Source: Pelagimonas phthalicica (GTDB taxonomy: Bacteria > Pseudomonadota > Alphaproteobacteria > Rhodobacterales > Rhodobacteraceae). From it: a DNA stretch of 64,000 nucleotides. The stretch covers positions 1 to 64,000 of the forward strand of contig NZ_SOAP01000005.1 of the NCBI RefSeq assembly GCF_004364805.1, written 5' to 3'. Below, piece after piece: positions 228 to 57,789 of the stretch. A program made the translations under genes and the position numbers. The first letter of the stretch is position 1, and each line of letters opens with the position of its first letter. The notes beneath the pieces were generated by a model, which worked only from the letters and a program-made list of their open reading frames with translations, made no database searches and was not told the DNA's origin.

Positions 228-986
228 TCAGGCAAACCGGCGGCGCAGCGCAACATTGATCCCTTCAATGGCGATCACCATGATGACCACTGCAATCGTC
301 ACGCTTGCGGCCTTGTCGTATTGGAACGAGCGCACATAGGTCTGAATGTAGAACCCGATTCCACCTGCCCCGACAATGCCAAGGATCAGAGACTCGCGCA
401 GGTTCAGCTCGAACCGAAAGATCGTGTCCCGCGCTACAACAGGGGCCATTTGCGGCCAGATCGCATGGCGTAAACGCAGCAACGGCCCGGCTCCGGCACT
501 TTCCAAAGCGGAAATCGGAGCGCGGGACACACCATCGATCGCTTCGGCGTAGAATTTGGCCAGCATGCCTGTCGCGTGGAGCGCCACCGCGATGATGCCG
601 GGCAATGGCCCCAGCCCAACCGCGCCCACCATCAGCATTGCCACCAGGATCAGCGGGATCGCGCGAATAAATGCCAGAACAGTGCGGATCGGCCGGTGCA
701 CCGTTGCCGACACCATCGTCTCGGAGGCGAGGATGCCAAGCGGAACGGAAAGGATCACCGCACCGACAGTACCGAGGATCGCGATCCGCAGCGTCTCGGC
801 GCTCCCCTTCCAGATCTCATCCATAACGGTCGGATCCGGCGGGAACATGCGGCCAAGGAAATCCGCAATGCGAGGGCCTGCAGACAGCAGTCGGGACAGT
901 TCGACATCGGTGGTGATCAGCGACCACAGCACCACACCGGCAACCAACATCCCGGCCCAGAACCCGCCCAGATTGCGCGACCGCAT
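228..986 (-). CDS. PhnE-like ABC transporter permease
   Basis: Inner-membrane permease of a binding-protein-dependent ABC importer, 252 aa with about six hydrophobic segments. The cytoplasmic coupling loop (EAA-like, ESAGAGPLLRLRHAIWPQ) lies near residues 160-180. The sequence resembles the PhnE/PtxC family (phosphonate, phosphite and related oxyanion importers). It is the last gene of the run peroxidase-phnD-phnC-phnE and abuts the ATPase gene at 986. No C-P lyase (phnG-M), phosphonatase or ptxD gene is visible nearby. The upstream MntR-type operator makes the substrate uncertain, so I do not assign the phnE symbol. Family call is firm; substrate is unknown. Confidence 0.85.
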   Translation of the reverse strand: MRSRNLGGFWAGMLVAGVVLWSLITTDVELSRLLSAGPRIADFLGRMFPPDPTVMDEIWKGSAETLRIAILGTVGAVILSVPLGILASETMVSATVHRPIRTVLAFIRAIPLILVAMLMVGAVGLGPLPGIIAVALHATGMLAKFYAEAIDGVSRAPISALESAGAGPLLRLRHAIWPQMAPVVARDTIFRFELNLRESLILGIVGAGGIGFYIQTYVRSFQYDKAASVTIAVVIMVIAIEGINVALRRRFA

Positions 987-1771
987 CAGCTTACGACCTT
1001 GAGCCGTGCGCCGGATGCCGGGTCGGTGTCGTCATAGAGCGCCGCCGTCGCGTCATCCGTCAGATCGTGCGTCGCGACATCAAAGACGATCCGCCCGTTG
1101 CGCATTCCGATGATACGGTCGGCAAAACGCCGTGCCAGTTCCGGTTGATGCGACGAGAACACAGTCGTTGCCCCACGTGCCTGGGCGGCGCTGGTGAGAA
1201 GTGTCAGGATGTCCGCTGCTCTGGACGGATCAAGGTTGCTGACCGGCTCGTCCGCGAAGATCAGCTTAGGCTCTTGTGCGAGACAACGGGCAATTGCCAC
1301 CCGCTGGCGCTGGCCGCCACTGAGCGAGTCCACGCGCCGGTCTGCGAGGTCCGCGATGCCGCAGTCGGAGAGTGCCGATCGGGCTATGTCCATGTCGGAC
1401 TTCGACACGTTGCCAAGCAACGCGCGCCAGCCGGGCATCCGGCCCAGCCTGCCGTTCAAGACGTTGCGCATCACTGTCGATCGTTCGACAAGCGCAAACT
1501 CCTGAAAGATGAAACCTGTTTCAGCGCGCTTTTCCAAGGGCAGCGCACGGTTGGGTTCGAATGGTACACCAAGGACAGAGACCCGCCCTTGCCAATCGCG
1601 CAACCGTCCATCCAGCAACGTCAAAAGCGTGGTCTTGCCTGCTCCGGAAGGACCAAGAAGGGCAACGCACTCCCCGGCGGCTATGTGCAGGGACACCTGA
1701 TCGATGGCGCGCTGCTCAGCACCGTGATGGCCGAAGCTCAGATCGTCGATGTGAATGGCGTTCTGCATCAT
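986..1771 (-). CDS. PhnC-like ABC transporter ATP-binding protein
   Basis: ATPase of the same importer, 261 aa. Walker A (GPSGAGKT) is at residues 40-47, the signature LSGGQRQRVAIARCL and Walker B (LIFADEP) follow in the second half, and an H-loop (SSHQPE) is near the end. The start is the ATG at 1771, which gives an ATGA overlap with the upstream phnD-like stop. A longer in-frame extension to 1990 exists but lies inside the binding-protein gene and has low-complexity Arg-rich sequence. Similar to PhnC/PtxA ATPases. It should energise the 228-986 permease. Confidence 0.88.
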   Translation of the reverse strand: MMQNAIHIDDLSFGHHGAEQRAIDQVSLHIAAGECVALLGPSGAGKTTLLTLLDGRLRDWQGRVSVLGVPFEPNRALPLEKRAETGFIFQEFALVERSTVMRNVLNGRLGRMPGWRALLGNVSKSDMDIARSALSDCGIADLADRRVDSLSGGQRQRVAIARCLAQEPKLIFADEPVSNLDPSRAADILTLLTSAAQARGATTVFSSHQPELARRFADRIIGMRNGRIVFDVATHDLTDDATAALYDDTDPASGARLKVVS

Positions 1772-2640
1772 AGTAATCCGAAGCGCTGCGCCATAGTCCG
1801 CACACCGTCGAACACCGAAGGGTCGGCTTCGACATAGCCATCCGGGCCGTAGAGATAGCGGAGTTTGTCGCGGTGTTCTGGCATGTTGAGCTTCATCATC
1901 GCGGCAACGAAGTTCTCGCGAAGCTCCGCGTCCAGTTCGGGACGTGCGATGACGACATGGCTTGGAATGGCATCGCTTTCCGCGATCCAAGTAACCTGAG
2001 ATTGCTGCTCGGGGGTGAGAAGAAGGTCGGCGTATTGGCTGGCCCCGGCTGCATCGACCAGGCCCTCCGCCATCGCCTGCATTGCCTGTTGGTAGCCACC
2101 GGCAAAGAAAATGCGGCCAAAGAAGTCCTCTGCCGCATCCGGGCTGGATACCAGGCCTGCGCGCTCAAACTCGGCCAGGGGGTACATGTATCCCGATTCC
2201 GAAATCGGGTCGGCAAAGGCGATGTCGCGACCTTCCAGATCGGCCAGCATCTTGAAGCCGCTGTCACGGCGCACAAAGACGCGGCCCGTATAACTGGGCG
2301 TATCGCGGTAGACCTCTGACAAGAGCGGGATGGCACCGATTTCCCTTTCGGCCAGAACGAAGGGTAGGGCACCCATAAAGGAAATATCGGCATCGCCGTT
2401 GCGCAATGCTTCGACGGCCGCCGCGTGGTCGATGGTAACGAACCCTTCGACTGGCACACCGATTTCAGACGAAAGCCAGGCGGTGATCGCCTTGATATCG
2501 CCCAGAAGCTTGTCGGGGTTCTCCTGCGGTATAAAGGCCAGGCGCAACGGGTCAGACTGCGCCAGAGCAGGCATCGGCTGCGAGACAAGACCGGCCGCTG
2601 CGAGAATAAGAAGGTGACGGCGATTCAAGCGAGGCATCAT
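1768..2640 (-). CDS. PhnD-like periplasmic substrate-binding protein
   Basis: Solute-binding protein, 290 aa, PhnD/PtxB/AioX superfamily. It has a signal sequence with an NRRHLLIL twin-arginine-like start and a likely cleavage after PALA-Q. The mature part shows family features: IPQENP near the N-terminus, the D(I)SFMGALPFV segment, and FADP-SESGYMYP, which corresponds to the conserved anion-binding loop (usually DP-STSGY/LVP). The start at 2640 gives an ATGA overlap with the di-heme protein gene; the in-frame extension to 2691 is inside that gene. Members of this family bind phosphonates, phosphite, hypophosphite or arsenite. The MntR-like operator upstream leaves the ligand open. Confidence 0.85.
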   Translation of the reverse strand: MMPRLNRRHLLILAAAGLVSQPMPALAQSDPLRLAFIPQENPDKLLGDIKAITAWLSSEIGVPVEGFVTIDHAAAVEALRNGDADISFMGALPFVLAEREIGAIPLLSEVYRDTPSYTGRVFVRRDSGFKMLADLEGRDIAFADPISESGYMYPLAEFERAGLVSSPDAAEDFFGRIFFAGGYQQAMQAMAEGLVDAAGASQYADLLLTPEQQSQVTWIAESDAIPSHVVIARPELDAELRENFVAAMMKLNMPEHRDKLRYLYGPDGYVEADPSVFDGVRTMAQRFGLL

Positions 2641-4520
2641 CAAAACGCCTTTTCTTCTATGGCGGCGGCATCCGTCTTGAACAGACTCCAACTCGTTTCC
2701 GCGGCCGCCCAGTTCTCTGCCCGAACGGCTGCGCCGACCTCTGCCAAGCGCTCGGCCAGTGCGTAGACCTCGGGCCGCGACGAAAGATTGGCCATCGTGC
2801 CTGCATCGGCCGCAAGATCGGCCGCAACCGTGTCGGTCAGGACCAGGATGTGCTGCGCATCGCGTTTCGGTAGAAGCGTGTCGAGCGTCGAGGCAAAGGT
2901 CGTGAGTTCGGCGAAGGCCAGACGGAAGGGCGTGTTCGCGGTATCGAAAGCCTCGTATGGCTCATCGGCTGCGCCAACCGTTTCCAGATAGGCGGTCAGG
3001 TCCGACCGCTCGGCATCGGTCAGGCCAAGGTTCTTTGTCTCGTCGAACCAATCCACAACACTTGCCAGCGTCGGCAGGGCACCGTCGTGGAAATACGGCG
3101 CTGTGTAGAGCGTACCGAGCAAGGTGGGCGTGTCGAGGGCACCTGCATGTGACCCTTCGTAAGCCGCAGCCACCGATCCGATGTCGTGCGATTTGCGATC
3201 AAGAAAGTTGCCGGATGGCGTATGGCAGCTGGCACAGGATTGGTTGCCCATTCCGACGAAGGGGCGGTTGAATACCTCTTCGCCACGCCGCGCAGCATCC
3301 GGCGCGGCCTCCGTCAACTGGCCGTCGCCGGTGACCAGGGAATTGGGCAGGAAATCGAACTCGGTCATGTAGGCCACGAGTGCGTCCAGCATGAAGGGTG
3401 TGGGTTCTTCGCCAGCGAATTCATTGACGATCACGTTGCGGGAGAAATCCCGCAGCGACGCGAAACGACCGTCTCGCCCGTAAGGTCCGGTAAAGCGCAG
3501 CCCGCGCAGGCTTGGGATATCGATCGGATCATCGCGGCGGTCGTTGAACATCGGGTTGAAGAAAGCGCCATCCACGTCGACTGCTCCGGGCTGGTGACTG
3601 GCACCGGGAATGAAAAATCGCTGATTGATGTCCGAGCGATTGTGACAAGTCGAACAGGCTATGCCCAGATCGCGGGCCGGTCCGCCGAATATCTCGGCAC
3701 TGTCGAACAGCATGTCACCGTAGGCGATGAGGGGCAGGTCGGTTTCGTCGATCCCCTGCTCCTCGAAATTGAGCACGAGAAGTGGTAGAGGGTCCTGATC
3801 GAAGATGTCTGAGCCGGGGGGCAGAGCGGCGGGCAATTCAACCGGCTGTCCGGTTCGGGCAATCGCCTCGGGCACGGCAGTCAGCGTCTGGCGCGGGGCA
3901 GGATCCGCGACGAGGTAATTTTCTGCCAGGTAGGCTGAAATCACCGCGCGCGCGGTGGTCATTGCGTCGCTATCCTGTTCCTTGGCACCGGCACCGAGCA
4001 CGCCCGCCGAGCCTGTGGCATTGTTGAGTTCCAACCACGCCCGACCCAATGTCCGGGCCGCATCAGGGTCCGCGGCTTTGATATGGTCAGCGAACGCGCG
4101 GTAGAGCTCCTTGGCAGTTGCCACTGCCCGTTGCGATACCGCCGGGTTGTCTGCAGCAGTGGCCGCGTCCAGCTCTTCTTCGATTCTCAGCGCAATGAGG
4201 CGGGTGGCCGCCACATGAACGGCATGCCGATCCTGCCAGCCGATAGCGTCGGTCAAGTCACCGACATCAACGGCGCTTTCTCGGTCCAACCAGGCAAGTG
4301 CTCCGAGGCGATACTCCGAGCCATGATAGGGCTCGGACCAGGCTTGCTCCACCTTATACCACGGGACCGGCGCGAGATTGCCCAGAAACAGCGTCAACCG
4401 ATAGGCTGCCGCTTCGGGCAGCCAGGGGGCTTCCTTGGCTGGTGTTGCAAAGGACGGACCCGTCACCGCCAAAGAGGTGACAATCACGAACAGGATCACG
4501 CGCAGGACGTGCTGGATCAC
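2640..4520 (-). CDS. Large di-heme cytochrome c peroxidase / MauG-family protein
   Basis: Secreted protein of 626 aa with an N-terminal Sec signal (cut after SFA). Two c-type heme motifs, CSTCH near residues 289-293 and CASCH near 429-433, sit in a CcpA/MauG-type fold (PSLRGLRFTGPYGRDGRFASL and TPTLLGTLYTAPYFHDGALPTL, typical of bacterial di-heme peroxidases). Usual family members are 330-400 aa. Here about 240 extra residues precede the first heme and about 110 helical residues follow the core. First gene of the operon with the PhnD/C/E-like importer; its start is 18 nt from a palindromic MntR-type operator. It may oxidise or reduce a substrate or metal for the importer, which is inference. 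Confidence 0.85.
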   Translation of the reverse strand: MIQHVLRVILFVIVTSLAVTGPSFATPAKEAPWLPEAAAYRLTLFLGNLAPVPWYKVEQAWSEPYHGSEYRLGALAWLDRESAVDVGDLTDAIGWQDRHAVHVAATRLIALRIEEELDAATAADNPAVSQRAVATAKELYRAFADHIKAADPDAARTLGRAWLELNNATGSAGVLGAGAKEQDSDAMTTARAVISAYLAENYLVADPAPRQTLTAVPEAIARTGQPVELPAALPPGSDIFDQDPLPLLVLNFEEQGIDETDLPLIAYGDMLFDSAEIFGGPARDLGIACSTCHNRSDINQRFFIPGASHQPGAVDVDGAFFNPMFNDRRDDPIDIPSLRGLRFTGPYGRDGRFASLRDFSRNVIVNEFAGEEPTPFMLDALVAYMTEFDFLPNSLVTGDGQLTEAAPDAARRGEEVFNRPFVGMGNQSCASCHTPSGNFLDRKSHDIGSVAAAYEGSHAGALDTPTLLGTLYTAPYFHDGALPTLASVVDWFDETKNLGLTDAERSDLTAYLETVGAADEPYEAFDTANTPFRLAFAELTTFASTLDTLLPKRDAQHILVLTDTVAADLAADAGTMANLSSRPEVYALAERLAEVGAAVRAENWAAAETSWSLFKTDAAAIEEKAF

Positions 4521-4537
4521 AGATGGCTCCCCTCAAA

Positions 4538-4557
4538 AAGTTAGACGCGTCTAACTT
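4538..4557. promoter_or_regulatory. MntR/DtxR-type operator palindrome
   Basis: Perfect 20-bp inverted repeat AAGTTAGACGCGTCTAACTT between the divergent di-heme peroxidase and mntR genes. The TTAGAC half sites resemble published boxes of DtxR/MntR regulators (TTAG...CTAA). Its position 18 nt before the peroxidase start and about 55 nt before the mntR start fits repression of the importer operon and autoregulation. Confidence 0.75.
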
Positions 4558-4612
4558 ATCTACCCAAAGCCAACTTGTTGTCAATCCATCAACCTTCAGG
4601 CAAAGTCCTGTC

Positions 4613-5074
4613 ATGTCGCCCGGCGCATCACAGACGCGTGAAGATTTCATGCCTGATTCCCGCGATCCCGAAGCCCAGGCCGACGGGTTCGCGCATGTGC
4701 GCAATGCGCATGAAAGCGAGATGGCGGAAGATTATGTGGAGCTGATCGCGGAGTTGATTGAAGCCCATGGGGAGGCGCGACCGGTCGACATTGCCGAACG
4801 GCTGGGGGTCAAAGCACCGACGGTGACCAAGAACATCTCGCGCCTGAAGCAAGCAGGGCTGGTGCGCCGTGAAAAATATCGCTCGGTTTTCCTGACCGAA
4901 AGAGGCCAGGCTCTCGCTGAGGCCTGCCGCCGGCGCCACAGGATCGTGGTCGCATTTCTGCAAAGCCTCGGGATTGACGAAGTAACGGCCGAGCGTGATG
5001 CCGAAGGCATCGAACACCACGTCAGCGAGGCGACGCTGTTGGCGTTTGAGAAACATATTAAGAGGCCCGGTTGA
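4613..5074 (+). CDS. mntR: MntR family manganese-responsive regulator
   Basis: DtxR/MntR-type metalloregulator, 153 aa from this start. The winged helix is at residues ~40-95 (ARPVDIAERLGVKAPTVTKN as recognition region), followed by the metal-binding dimerisation domain with the conserved RRRHRIVVAFL and RDAEGIEHHVSE segments that carry the Mn ligands of E. coli MntR. Starting at 4613 reproduces the 26-residue spacing before the EGF-like DGF seen in E. coli MntR (155 aa); an in-frame extension to 4523 would run through the operator. Divergent from the peroxidase/ABC operon and separated by a palindromic operator, so it probably represses that operon when Mn (or Fe) is replete. Confidence 0.88.
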   Translation: MSPGASQTREDFMPDSRDPEAQADGFAHVRNAHESEMAEDYVELIAELIEAHGEARPVDIAERLGVKAPTVTKNISRLKQAGLVRREKYRSVFLTERGQALAEACRRRHRIVVAFLQSLGIDEVTAERDAEGIEHHVSEATLLAFEKHIKRPG

Positions 5075-54859: not shown

Positions 54860-55913
54860 GTTGCGACAAATTCCCTATCTTGCTGAAAAGCAAGGAGAAT
54901 GGAATTGGCACACACAGAGTTGGATTTGCGTGAACGTCGCGCGATTGAGGATATGTTGAATGCAAAGATGGCGGTGAGCAAGATAGCAACCCACCTGGGC
55001 CGCCATCGTTCGGCGATCTACCGTGAGATCAAACGCAATCATTTTGCCGACGGAGAACTGCCGTATCTAAGTGGGTATTACGGTGTGAATGCCCAAAGAA
55101 ATGCGTCAGATCGGCGAGCGCGGCGCCGTAAACTGATCCGCCTGGATGACCTGCGCGCTCATGTGGTTGATCGGTTGATCGAAGGCTGGACACCGGAGCA
55201 GATCGCGGGCCGTCTTGGTCACGACAACCAACCCATCCGCGTCAGTCATGAGACGATTTACGCGTATGTCTATAGCGCCGAAGGCCAATCCGCACAGCTT
55301 GCCCGCTACCTGCCCAGCCGGAGAAAGAAACGGCTGCCTCGATATGCCAGACGCCGGCGCGGCCAGGTGTTTCCGCCAGAGCGTTCGATCCATCAACGCC
55401 CAGACCACGTGAAGACCCGCACGAGGTTTGGCGATTGGGAAGGTGATCTGATGATCTTTGAGAAGAAGACCGGCAATATGAATGTGGCGTCCTTGGTCGA
55501 GCGGAAAACCCGATATGCGGTTTTGTTCAGGAACAACAACCGCAGCTCGAAACATGTCATGACGTCGATTTTGAATGTTCTGGAACCCCTGCCCCAGCCC
55601 GCGCGTAAATCGATCACATTTGATCGTGGTTTTGAGTTTCGAGACTGGCGGCGGCTGAAGACAGAAATCGGAACCGAAAGCTGGTTCTGTGATCCGCAAG
55701 CGCCCTGGCAAAAAGGATCTGTTGAAGAGCTGAACAAACGGGCGCGCAGATATTTACCGCGGGATACGCAAGTGGCGGCTCTCACAAATCGCAACATGAA
55801 GGCGATTTGTGACCGCCTCAACGAGACACCCAGAAAGTGCCTCGGATGGCGAACTCCAACGGAAGTATTCCGAGAAGAGATGATGAAACTGAGATAGCGG
55901 AAACCGTCGCAAC
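54860..55913. mobile_element. IS30 family element (a), complete
   Basis: Inverted-repeat ends near TTGCGACAAATTCCCTATC (54861) and the reverse complement of TTGCGACGGTTTCCGCTATC (ending ~55912) flank an intact transposase. Left end lies 9 bp from the IS1111 right repeat. Confidence 0.6.
54899..55897 (+). CDS. IS30 family transposase (a)
   Basis: 332 aa. N-terminal HTH (RRAIEDMLNAKMAVSKIATHLGRHRSAIYREIKRN) and DDE domain (FGDWEGDLMIF..., RKSITFDRGFEFRDW, CDPQAPWQKGSVEELNK). Complete, likely functional. Different in sequence from copies b and c. Confidence 0.95.
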   Translation: MELAHTELDLRERRAIEDMLNAKMAVSKIATHLGRHRSAIYREIKRNHFADGELPYLSGYYGVNAQRNASDRRARRRKLIRLDDLRAHVVDRLIEGWTPEQIAGRLGHDNQPIRVSHETIYAYVYSAEGQSAQLARYLPSRRKKRLPRYARRRRGQVFPPERSIHQRPDHVKTRTRFGDWEGDLMIFEKKTGNMNVASLVERKTRYAVLFRNNNRSSKHVMTSILNVLEPLPQPARKSITFDRGFEFRDWRRLKTEIGTESWFCDPQAPWQKGSVEELNKRARRYLPRDTQVAALTNRNMKAICDRLNETPRKCLGWRTPTEVFREEMMKLR

Positions 55914-55946
55914 GACCCTTGAGTCAACACCGGTGGATTCACAAAC

Positions 55947-57030
55947 GAAGTGCAAATTCTTTACGAATACAGAGAGTTGCATGGAGTATGAAGAATGGGA
56001 CACCACTACTGTCACCTGAAGCTGGACGAACGACGCAAGCTAGCAAAGTGGCTTGAAGCGAAAATGCCGGTTTCGGAGATCGCGGATAGATTGGGCCGTG
56101 ACCCTTCCACGATTTACCGAGACATCAAGCTGAACCGATACACAGACGACGAATTGCCGGAGCTGAATGGATACTACGCTCTGAACGCTCAGGACATGTA
56201 TGAGAAGCGTCGCGCTGTTCATCGCAAGATGGTCGTTCATCCTGAACTCAAGGCTGCCATCGAGGACAGGCTCAGAGCTGGCTGGTCGCCTGAACAGATA
56301 GCCGGACGCATGCGACTTGAACGCCGTCCGATCCGTGTGAGCCATGAGACGATCTATCGTTTTGCATACTCCAAAGATGGCCGCGAGGAGCAGTTCTTTC
56401 GCCACCTGCCCGAACATCGCCGACGTCGCAGGCCACGCGGCTACCGCAGGCACAATCGAACGCATATCTTCGACGTTCAAAGCCTGTCACACAGGCCTGA
56501 CCGCATCTCAGCACGCGCTGAGTTCGGCCACTGGGAATGCGATCTGATGATGTTCCGCAAGGAACATGGGAAGGTCAACGTGACGTCGCTGGTCGAACGC
56601 GTCAGCCGCTTCGCTGTCGTGATGCGTAACGAAGACCGCCAGTCCAAACCGATCATGGAGGCACTGATCCAGGGCCTGGCTCCCCTGCCCGCCGATGCGC
56701 GTCAATCGATCACCTTCGATCGCGGTACCGAGTTCTCCGCCTGGAAGCACCTCAAAGCCGGGATCGGAGCGGATGCGTGGTTCTGTGATCCACAAGCGCC
56801 GTATCAGAAAGGTACCGTGGAAAACACGAACAACAGATTGCGGCGGTATCTCCCCAGATCAACCGAACCGACGGCGCTGACAAATCGATATTTGAGGTCG
56901 ATTTGCCATCGCCTCAAGTCCACACCGCGCAAGTGCTTGGGCTACTACACCCCGGCGGAGATCTTCGAGACTAAGCTGATGGAAATTCAGAACCGATTGG
57001 AATAAATAGACATATCAGAAACTGCACTTC
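55947..57030. mobile_element. IS30 family element (b), complete
   Basis: Terminal repeats GAAGTGCAAATTCT (55947 on) and, at the right, the reverse complement of GAAGTGCAGTTTCT (ending ~57030) enclose one transposase gene. Its right end meets the truncated copy c directly, suggesting insertion into it. Confidence 0.6.
55995..57005 (+). CDS. IS30 family transposase (b)
   Basis: 336 aa. HTH DERRKLAKWLEAKMPVSEIADRLGRDPSTIYRDIKLNRY; DDE residues in FGHWECDLMMF, ITFDRGTEFSAW, DPQAPYQKGTVENTNNR. Full length. Partially similar to copy c at the C-terminal half. Confidence 0.95.
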   Translation: MGHHYCHLKLDERRKLAKWLEAKMPVSEIADRLGRDPSTIYRDIKLNRYTDDELPELNGYYALNAQDMYEKRRAVHRKMVVHPELKAAIEDRLRAGWSPEQIAGRMRLERRPIRVSHETIYRFAYSKDGREEQFFRHLPEHRRRRRPRGYRRHNRTHIFDVQSLSHRPDRISARAEFGHWECDLMMFRKEHGKVNVTSLVERVSRFAVVMRNEDRQSKPIMEALIQGLAPLPADARQSITFDRGTEFSAWKHLKAGIGADAWFCDPQAPYQKGTVENTNNRLRRYLPRSTEPTALTNRYLRSICHRLKSTPRKCLGYYTPAEIFETKLMEIQNRLE

Positions 57031-57033
57031 ACC

Positions 57034-57789
57034 GTGAGTTCACATCAGCGTGTCATCGCGCGCCTTATGAATGGCTGGACGCCCGCGCAGATTGGCAATC
57101 GGATGATCTATGAAGGTGCTAAGCTGCGTGTCTGCCAGGAAACAATCTACCGCTACATCTATTCCAAGGAAGGTATGGCACAGGAGCTGTGGTGGTATCT
57201 GCCTGAGCATCGCAAGTCCCGTAGACCACGTCGTGCCAGAAAGCGTCAGGCTCCAAAATTTGATCGAGATGTCAGCATTCTCTTTCGACCTGATGATGTT
57301 GCCCACAGACGCCAGTTTGGTCATTGGGAAGCTGACTTGATCCTGTTCAAACAGAAGCTTGGACAATCTAATGTCACATCGCTGGTCGAGCGCGTTAGCC
57401 GCTTCACAGTGTTGTTGAAGAACCCCAACAAGCGCACGAAGCCTGTCATGGGAAAGATCATGAAAGCTGTCCGTGACCTGCCCCACCTAGCGCAGAAATC
57501 CATCACGTTTGACCGCGGAAGCGAGTTTGTCAGCTGGCCGCACCTACAGGCTGAGATCGGAACGCAGACCTGGTTCTGTGATCCATCCAGTCCGTGGCAG
57601 AAAGGCACCGTTGAAAACACCAACCGCCGGGTACGAAGATGGTTGCCCCGCAAGCGTGACATCAGGACGATGAAAGATCACGACCTGAAGATGCTCTGTG
57701 ACCGCCTCAACAACACGCCCCGCAAGTGCCTCGGATGGAAGACACCGGCGGAGGTCTTCAGAGAAAAGATGTTGGAGGAATTGCGGTGA
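57034..57789 (+). pseudogene. IS30 family transposase (c), 5'-truncated
   Basis: 251 aa lacking the N-terminal HTH (~85 residues). The remaining DDE domain is intact (FGHWEADLILF, KSITFDRGSEFVSWPH, CDPSSPWQKGTVENTNRR). The preceding sequence is the right end of copy b, so insertion of b removed or replaced its 5' part. No matching 5' fragment is visible to the left of b. Confidence 0.85.

Follow-up and report, generated by a model that had tools for sequence, protein, structure and literature searches.

A putative MntR-linked peroxidase and PhnDCE-like importer module, probably for metal uptake, in marine bacteria

A 64,000-nt stretch of DNA from Pelagimonas phthalicica (RefSeq assembly GCF_004364805.1, contig NZ_SOAP01000005.1, positions 1 to 64,000 of the forward strand; hereafter the window) carries near its left end a gene for an MntR-type regulator and, divergent from it, a minus-strand operon (4520-228) that encodes in order a peroxidase and the binding protein, ATPase and permease of a PhnDCE-like ATP-binding cassette (ABC) importer (Table 1). 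A preliminary description of the locus, limited to 2640-5074, placed the genes and the regulatory site correctly, but the operon runs on through phnC and phnE and the whole unit is 228-5074. The same description had coupled the peroxidase gene to the binding-protein gene by an ATGA. The overlap is present, although its sequence is TGATG with one shared base, and the same one-base stop/start overlap is found at the phnD/phnC and phnC/phnE junctions. Because the first base of the contig is also that of the window, the stretch beyond phnE is outside the view at this locus. In 10 orthologous plasmid regions with an incomplete gene table, neither C-P lyase, phosphonatase nor phosphite dehydrogenase is annotated, in keeping with the earlier remark that phosphonate-degradation genes are missing near the importer.

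The arrangement is well kept. Our scan of named genomes for the peroxidase gave 123 relatives, of which 80 loci were retained (locus counts refer to these 80). The neighbor is mntR in 78/80 loci (all but L117 and L118) and phnD in 77/80. Two of the phnD-less loci (L096 and L106) break off at a contig edge within the peroxidase gene itself, and at L105 phnD and phnC are gone, with a partial phnE where the peroxidase match stops. The complete five-gene set occurs in the same order in 10/10 annotated plasmid regions. From this comparison, the MntR-linked PhnDCE/peroxidase set is probably a self-contained, mobile module. It should be noted that L040-L043 and L111 are 91-100% identical to the window, and so are not independent.

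Table 1. Predicted genes and regulatory elements of the module in the window
Feature	Positions	Strand	Remarks
mntR, DtxR-family regulator of the E. coli MntR type, 153 aa	4613-5074	+	4649 is a possible later start
Periplasmic di-heme cytochrome c peroxidase/MauG-superfamily gene, 626 aa	2640-4520	-	GTG start; PF03150
PhnD-like substrate-binding protein, altered ligand pocket	1768-2640	-	PF12974, 186.3 bits (cut-off 27)
PhnC-like ABC ATPase	986-1768	-	PF00005; TIGR02315, 236.4 bits, under the 266.1 cut-off
PhnE-like permease	228-986	-	TIGR01097, 245 bits (cut-off 216.7); PF00528
Operator palindrome AAGTTAGACGCGTCTAACTT	4538-4557		exact, perfect 20-bp palindrome
-35 box TTGACA, peroxidase promoter	4579-4584	-	exact in the window
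Probable -10 TAGATA, touching the operator	4557-4562	-	16-bp spacer; placed from the -35 box; weak consensus match

The palindrome between mntR and the peroxidase gene, reported in the preliminary description as perfect over 20 bp, is indeed exact and is the only one of its kind in the window. One or more such palindromes arise in 8% of 200 Markov-simulated windows; by length alone AAGTTAGACGCGTCTAACTT is thus only mildly unlikely, and the length is weak evidence. The reality of this predicted operator is instead settled by its conservation across loci. It is present in 78/78 loci with mntR, with 12 to 20 of the 20 bases as in the window, and the half-sites TTAG and CTAA are kept in 77/78 (L101 has GTAA). 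Over 57 distinct regions, the information content is 1.66 bits in the half-site columns against 0.73 in the flanks. L117 and L118, the loci without mntR, lack any site built on these half-sites, the best matches having 13 and 11 of 20 bases.

In 51/55 distinct regions the operator is preceded by an exact TTGACA at a distance of 21-33 bp, a position that makes the operator cover the -10/start region of the peroxidase promoter. A generic promoter scan found nothing at this promoter because the -10 is poor. The geometry would fit repression. With up to three mismatches allowed, AAGTTAGACGCGTCTAACTT has no second match anywhere in the 4.89-Mb genome, and MntR looks like a private regulator of the peroxidase/phnDCE operon. 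A wider MntR regulon was considered and dropped: a degenerate operator pattern (three mismatches or fewer) gave 121 matches in the genome against 284 for the reversed-pattern control, the best of them, besides the operator itself, being five places with two mismatches. An apparent remnant of the module is seen in one genome (G037), where L037 (8663-9467) and L038, on contigs C2 and C4, have mntR, an intact operator AAGTTAGACATGGCTAACTT and only the first 86 residues of the peroxidase; the remainder of the module is gone, and a 17,220-bp stretch is identical on the two contigs.

The regulator exceeds the equivalog cut-off of NF008273 (198.9 bits; cut-off 153), matches PDB entry 2h09 (E 4.3e-36) and is the only match of the genome to the DtxR C-terminal family. 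Residues D40, E43, H109, E131, E134 and H135 are invariant in 58/58 distinct orthologs; from an ungapped alignment to B. subtilis MntR, we take them to be the equivalents of its Mn-type ligands D8, E11, H77, E99, E102 and H103. At L117, on a proteobacterial contig from a metagenome-assembled genome (MAG), a divergent Fur-family gene (PF01475, E 2.3e-36) takes the place of mntR, and its product is under every NCBIfam equivalog cut-off listed. The intergenic gap there contains AATGATTATCATT, which we presume to be similar to the classical Fur box, and a perfect repeat TTGCGAATTATTCGCAA. That this operon is paired here with a second family of metal sensors speaks for a role in metal handling, with Fe and Mn equally likely. 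No regulator is adjacent at L118 and L160.

What the importer might carry is suggested by the pocket of the binding protein. The oxygens of phosphite in the PtxB of Trichodesmium are bound by Tyr55, Tyr100, Ser130, Thr131, Ser132 and His160, with Tyr208 as a cap (PMC5700983). The aligned residues of the binding protein are H72, Y117, S147, E148, S149, Y183 and H228. Tyr55 is thus replaced by His72, Thr131 by Glu148, His160 by Tyr183 and the cap Tyr208 by His228, and the motif STS-H becomes SES-Y. All seven residues are invariant in 61/61 distinct orthologs, drawn from the window and the 79 of 85 loci that were long enough. As controls we aligned to the binding protein 34 distinct PF12974 proteins, taken from the window's genome and from the sample of the class. 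None has Glu148 or His72 (0/34 for each; Tyr replaces the latter in 26/34); Ser-x-Ser is kept in 32/34, His at 183 in 31/34 and Tyr at 117 in 32/34. As judged by this alignment, the Ser-Thr-Ser plus His oxyanion ligand set is lost in the binding protein. The His/Glu/Tyr residues resemble a metal-type ligand set and the pocket a metal site, with no Cys and no Met cluster at the mapped positions. A carboxylate where an anion oxygen would lie and a pair of histidines speak for a cation, in the simplest case a metal, rather than for phosphonate.

The family models would allow the simplest annotation, that of an ordinary phosphonate/phosphite importer brought under MntR: PF12974, TIGR01098 and the PhnE models are all over their cut-offs and the best solved relatives of the binding protein are PtxB. 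But SES-Y in 61/61, where the controls keep Ser-x-Ser and His, is hard to reconcile with such a ligand, and the equivalog cut-offs of PhnD (TIGR03431, 150.4 vs. 261.1 bits) and PhnC are not reached; on the ligand motif we hold this possibility to be very unlikely. The binding-protein clade is well bounded, as far as sequence identity can tell: at least 42 plasmid records match at 60% identity or more and the next match is at 30% (among the best 60 of 911 matches), and in the class sample, ranked by score, identity falls from 67% to 32%. Five further PF12974 proteins are encoded in the window's genome (G000 C1:293079-1747705, C2:1350038), four of which keep Ser-Thr-Ser and one of which (L159) has Ala-Phe-Gly.

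An AlphaFold2 model of the binding protein is fair to good (predicted local distance difference test, pLDDT, 86). H72, Y117, E148, Y183 and H228 may join in one metal site. The nearest structures are PtxB, ArrX, AioX and PhnD, and some of these relatives bring in another possibility, that the cargo is a metal chelate or other organic ligand (a metallophore or a cationic small molecule), MntR control then reflecting metal supply. Non-phosphonate ligands are in fact bound by PF12974 relatives, for example arsenic oxyanions by ArrX and AioX and sterols by 7t1m, and a Glu/His/Tyr pocket could also fit a cationic organic ligand. In PtxB, however, the positions that are altered here close around a small oxyanion, and no metallophore-biosynthesis or TonB receptor gene is annotated alongside in the 10 plasmid regions, given the same incomplete gene table. 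We consider such a cargo unlikely, if worth keeping in mind.

Past the PhnD family, the next fold is that of transferrin lobes (1iej, Z 23.2, 2.7 A, 250 residues aligned). Ferric binding proteins of the FbpA type have a ligand set akin to the Tyr, Tyr, His plus carboxylate of transferrin. In transferrin itself, Fe(III) is held by Tyr95, Tyr188, His249, Asp63 and carbonate (PMC9957567). The binding protein matches the lobe fold, and its invariant Tyr, Tyr, His and Glu may correspond to this set. The likeness does not extend to sequence or Pfam matches: transferrin is not among the PDB matches of the binding-protein profile or of residues 196-251, and the transferrin Pfam family is unlisted for 24 members at E up to 10, where filters drop most weak matches. 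By comparison with transferrin motifs, Y117, Y183 and H228 presumably stand at transferrin Tyr95, Tyr188 and His249, a lead rather than a test, and Glu148 presumably lies off the place of Asp63.

The first gene of the operon encodes a protein that matches PF03150 (39.9 bits; cut-off 25.6), with exactly two CXXCH heme motifs in 70/70 distinct orthologs and long helical N- and C-terminal extensions; searched alone, the N- and C-terminal regions gave no Pfam family over its cut-off. MauG and MbnH, members of the wider group, modify their partner proteins. The peroxidase is neither of them proper, being far under both equivalog cut-offs (TIGR03791, 36.7 vs. 443.85; TIGR04039, 42.8 vs. 362.85 bits). 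Its structural model is poor (mean pLDDT 62.5) and gave no Foldseek match below E 0.001; weaker matches to PsbQ, cytochrome c', EfeM and EfeO were set aside on both counts. Its role may be removal of H2O2, oxidation of the metal or modification of the binding protein. Could the peroxidase be the main product, for periplasmic H2O2 defense under Mn shortage, and the cargo of the importer secondary? Its gene is promoter-proximal wherever the order is readable, and the heme motifs are kept throughout. Yet the importer genes stay attached, the few loci without phnD being mostly those cut by a contig edge, and the pocket of the binding protein is as invariant as any part of the module. These observations make a peroxidase-first module quite unlikely.

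Both the window and many relatives have the module inside a metal island, mostly for Cu, Zn and Hg, with genes for P-type ATPases, multicopper oxidases, SCO, PCu(A)C, DUF411, LspA, CtaG, ZIP, CDF and mercuric reductase. Neighbors in the window and in the 80-locus survey were named by eye; by this count, from crude open reading frames and partial flanks, a P-type ATPase-like neighbor is found in 52/80 loci. Like these neighbors, the module might have its function in copper or zinc homeostasis, with MntR as a sensor of another metal, an idea helped by several plasmids on which it lies amid genes for SCO, PCu(A)C, DUF411, CtaG, ZIP, CDF and P-type ATPases. The sensor ligands are of the Mn type, however, the pocket has neither Cys nor a Met cluster at the mapped positions, and the annotation of Leisingera caerulea shows no copper gene up to 12 kb from the module. 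A copper or zinc function accordingly has, in our estimate, a very small chance of being right.

Carrier genomes also have permeases of known importer families. We compared 50 carriers (the window's genome and those of 49 of the 80 loci) with 120 genomes of the family, a sample that contains some carriers (G000 and G050). An ABC-3 permease match is present in 50/50 carriers and 119/120 family genomes, and it is the only such match in 5/50 and 27/120, respectively. Replacement of SitABCD/MntH by the module was rejected, since Sit/Znu-type permeases are retained in carriers, if anything more often than in the genomes of the family. Nramp proteins are over the cut-off in 6/50 carriers and 22/120 family genomes, and strong matches (E below 1e-80) number 3/50 and 22/120 (p 0.055), a difference that is at best a hint.

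We prefer the view that the module takes up Mn or Fe under repression by MntR and pairs its importer with a periplasmic di-heme peroxidase, a reading we regard as fairly probable. It agrees in part with the preliminary description, which had suggested acquisition of a metal or of a metal-binding small molecule from the presence of a Mn or Fe regulator at genes for a di-heme peroxidase and a PhnD-family binding protein. The reading has two components, metal-responsive control and a metal-related importer. The first component is favored, as a prediction, by the conserved operator on the promoter, the Mn-type MntR ligands in 58/58 and the Fur-family swap, and the second, likewise predicted, by the disappearance of the phosphite/phosphonate motif together with newly invariant His/Glu/Tyr residues; the uptake reading as a whole is favored on sequence comparison. 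In metal-replete cells, metal-loaded MntR would sit on the palindrome over the -10/start region and block the operon. In metal shortage, MntR would be released and the operon turned on. The former oxyanion pocket, now a putative His/Glu/Tyr metal-type site, would capture the metal, the importer would take up Mn or Fe as an ion or simple complex, and the peroxidase would clear H2O2 or alter the redox state of the metal in the periplasm.

Several points weigh against this view. Residues 41-50 (pLDDT 63) and 141-150 (pLDDT 74) of the binding protein, partly in the pocket, are modeled at moderate confidence. The cap position is variable in the control proteins (Tyr in 4/34, His once, in L159, from an alignment at 22% identity), and at the cap only the gain of His228 is therefore distinctive. 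The Fur-family swap is known from one locus, L117, on a single MAG contig. The surrounding island has genes that suggest Cu, Zn and Hg more than Mn, and from the importer counts the module is to be read as an extra system beside known importers.

A bolder form of metal uptake would make the module a bacterial counterpart of ceruloplasmin plus transferrin assembled from unrelated parts. The peroxidase would spend H2O2 in oxidizing periplasmic Fe(II) or Mn(II), the trivalent metal would be caught by a ferric-type, PhnD-derived site of Tyr117, Tyr183, His228, Glu148 and His72, and PhnCE would import it; when metal is short, the set would be turned on by MntR or, in another lineage, by a Fur-family protein. 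This scheme is speculative and we think it improbable.

Among known systems, PtxB/PhnD/HtxB with PhnC/PhnE are of the same family and fold and have the same order of binding protein, ATPase and permease. They differ in having STS-H where the module has SES-Y, and the module adjoins mntR and a peroxidase gene. MntH and SitABCD/MntABC under MntR have in common with it an MntR of the E. coli type, the Mn-type ligand set and an operator on the promoter, whereas their importers are Nramp or an ABC-3 permease with a cluster A-I binding protein, and not PF12974/PhnCE. In EfeUOB and MauG/MbnH systems, too, a metal-handling protein has a periplasmic protein of the heme peroxidase type next to it; compared with EfeUOB, the peroxidase of the module is of the di-heme cytochrome c peroxidase/MauG type, not DyP, and its importer is ABC. 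In Stenotrophomonas, an MntR module with a TonB receptor and a thioredoxin-fold protein has been tied to Mn/Fe limitation (PMC13217887). There too MntR governs unusual periplasmic proteins, although they are unrelated to those of the window, and PhnDCE and a peroxidase are not mentioned in the accessible text of that source. In the literature searched, which left most subscription papers out of reach, we found no description of an MntR/peroxidase/PhnDCE cassette. The module is probably an undescribed metal uptake system of marine bacteria, often on metal-resistance plasmids, as its genes and their settings suggest.

If this is true, a binding-protein family not recognized as such joins Mn/Fe nutrition, with an oxyanion pocket re-tooled for metal. 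It would also suggest why a Mn-type sensor rides on copper/mercury-resistance plasmids: cells stressed by Cu or Zn may need extra Mn/Fe. The public annotation on many marine plasmids is that of a phosphate/phosphite/phosphonate importer, which would inflate counts of phosphonate users.

A search aimed at more divergent orthologs gave 2/385 genomes of the class and 2/398 of the phylum, the window's genome being counted in both; the order of one sampled genome, G184, was represented by 3 genomes. Locus L111 (Cognatishimia activa CECT 5113) and the window agree at 100% identity in mntR, phnD, phnC, phnE and ctaG. At L105 (9629-9928; Pontibrevibacter nitratireducens h42) the peroxidase match stops at residue 573, and on plasmid NZ_CP049815.1 of Pontibrevibacter nitratireducens the peroxidase and binding-protein genes are adjacent. 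The same match is given by NZ_CP066788.1 (a Martelella plasmid of 246,197 bp) and CP070278.1 (a plasmid of a 'Dysgonomonadaceae bacterium', 246,192 bp), which are probably one plasmid under two organism names, from one cold-seep source. Elsewhere in the window, 14887-49309 is a large metal island with genes for an alkaline phosphatase, a CDF exporter, two P-type ATPases, two multicopper oxidases, a mercuric reductase-like protein, a two-component pair, CcmF/CcmI and DsbD, and three consecutive IS30-type transposase genes, the third with a shorter start, lie at 54899-57789 (all named by eye).

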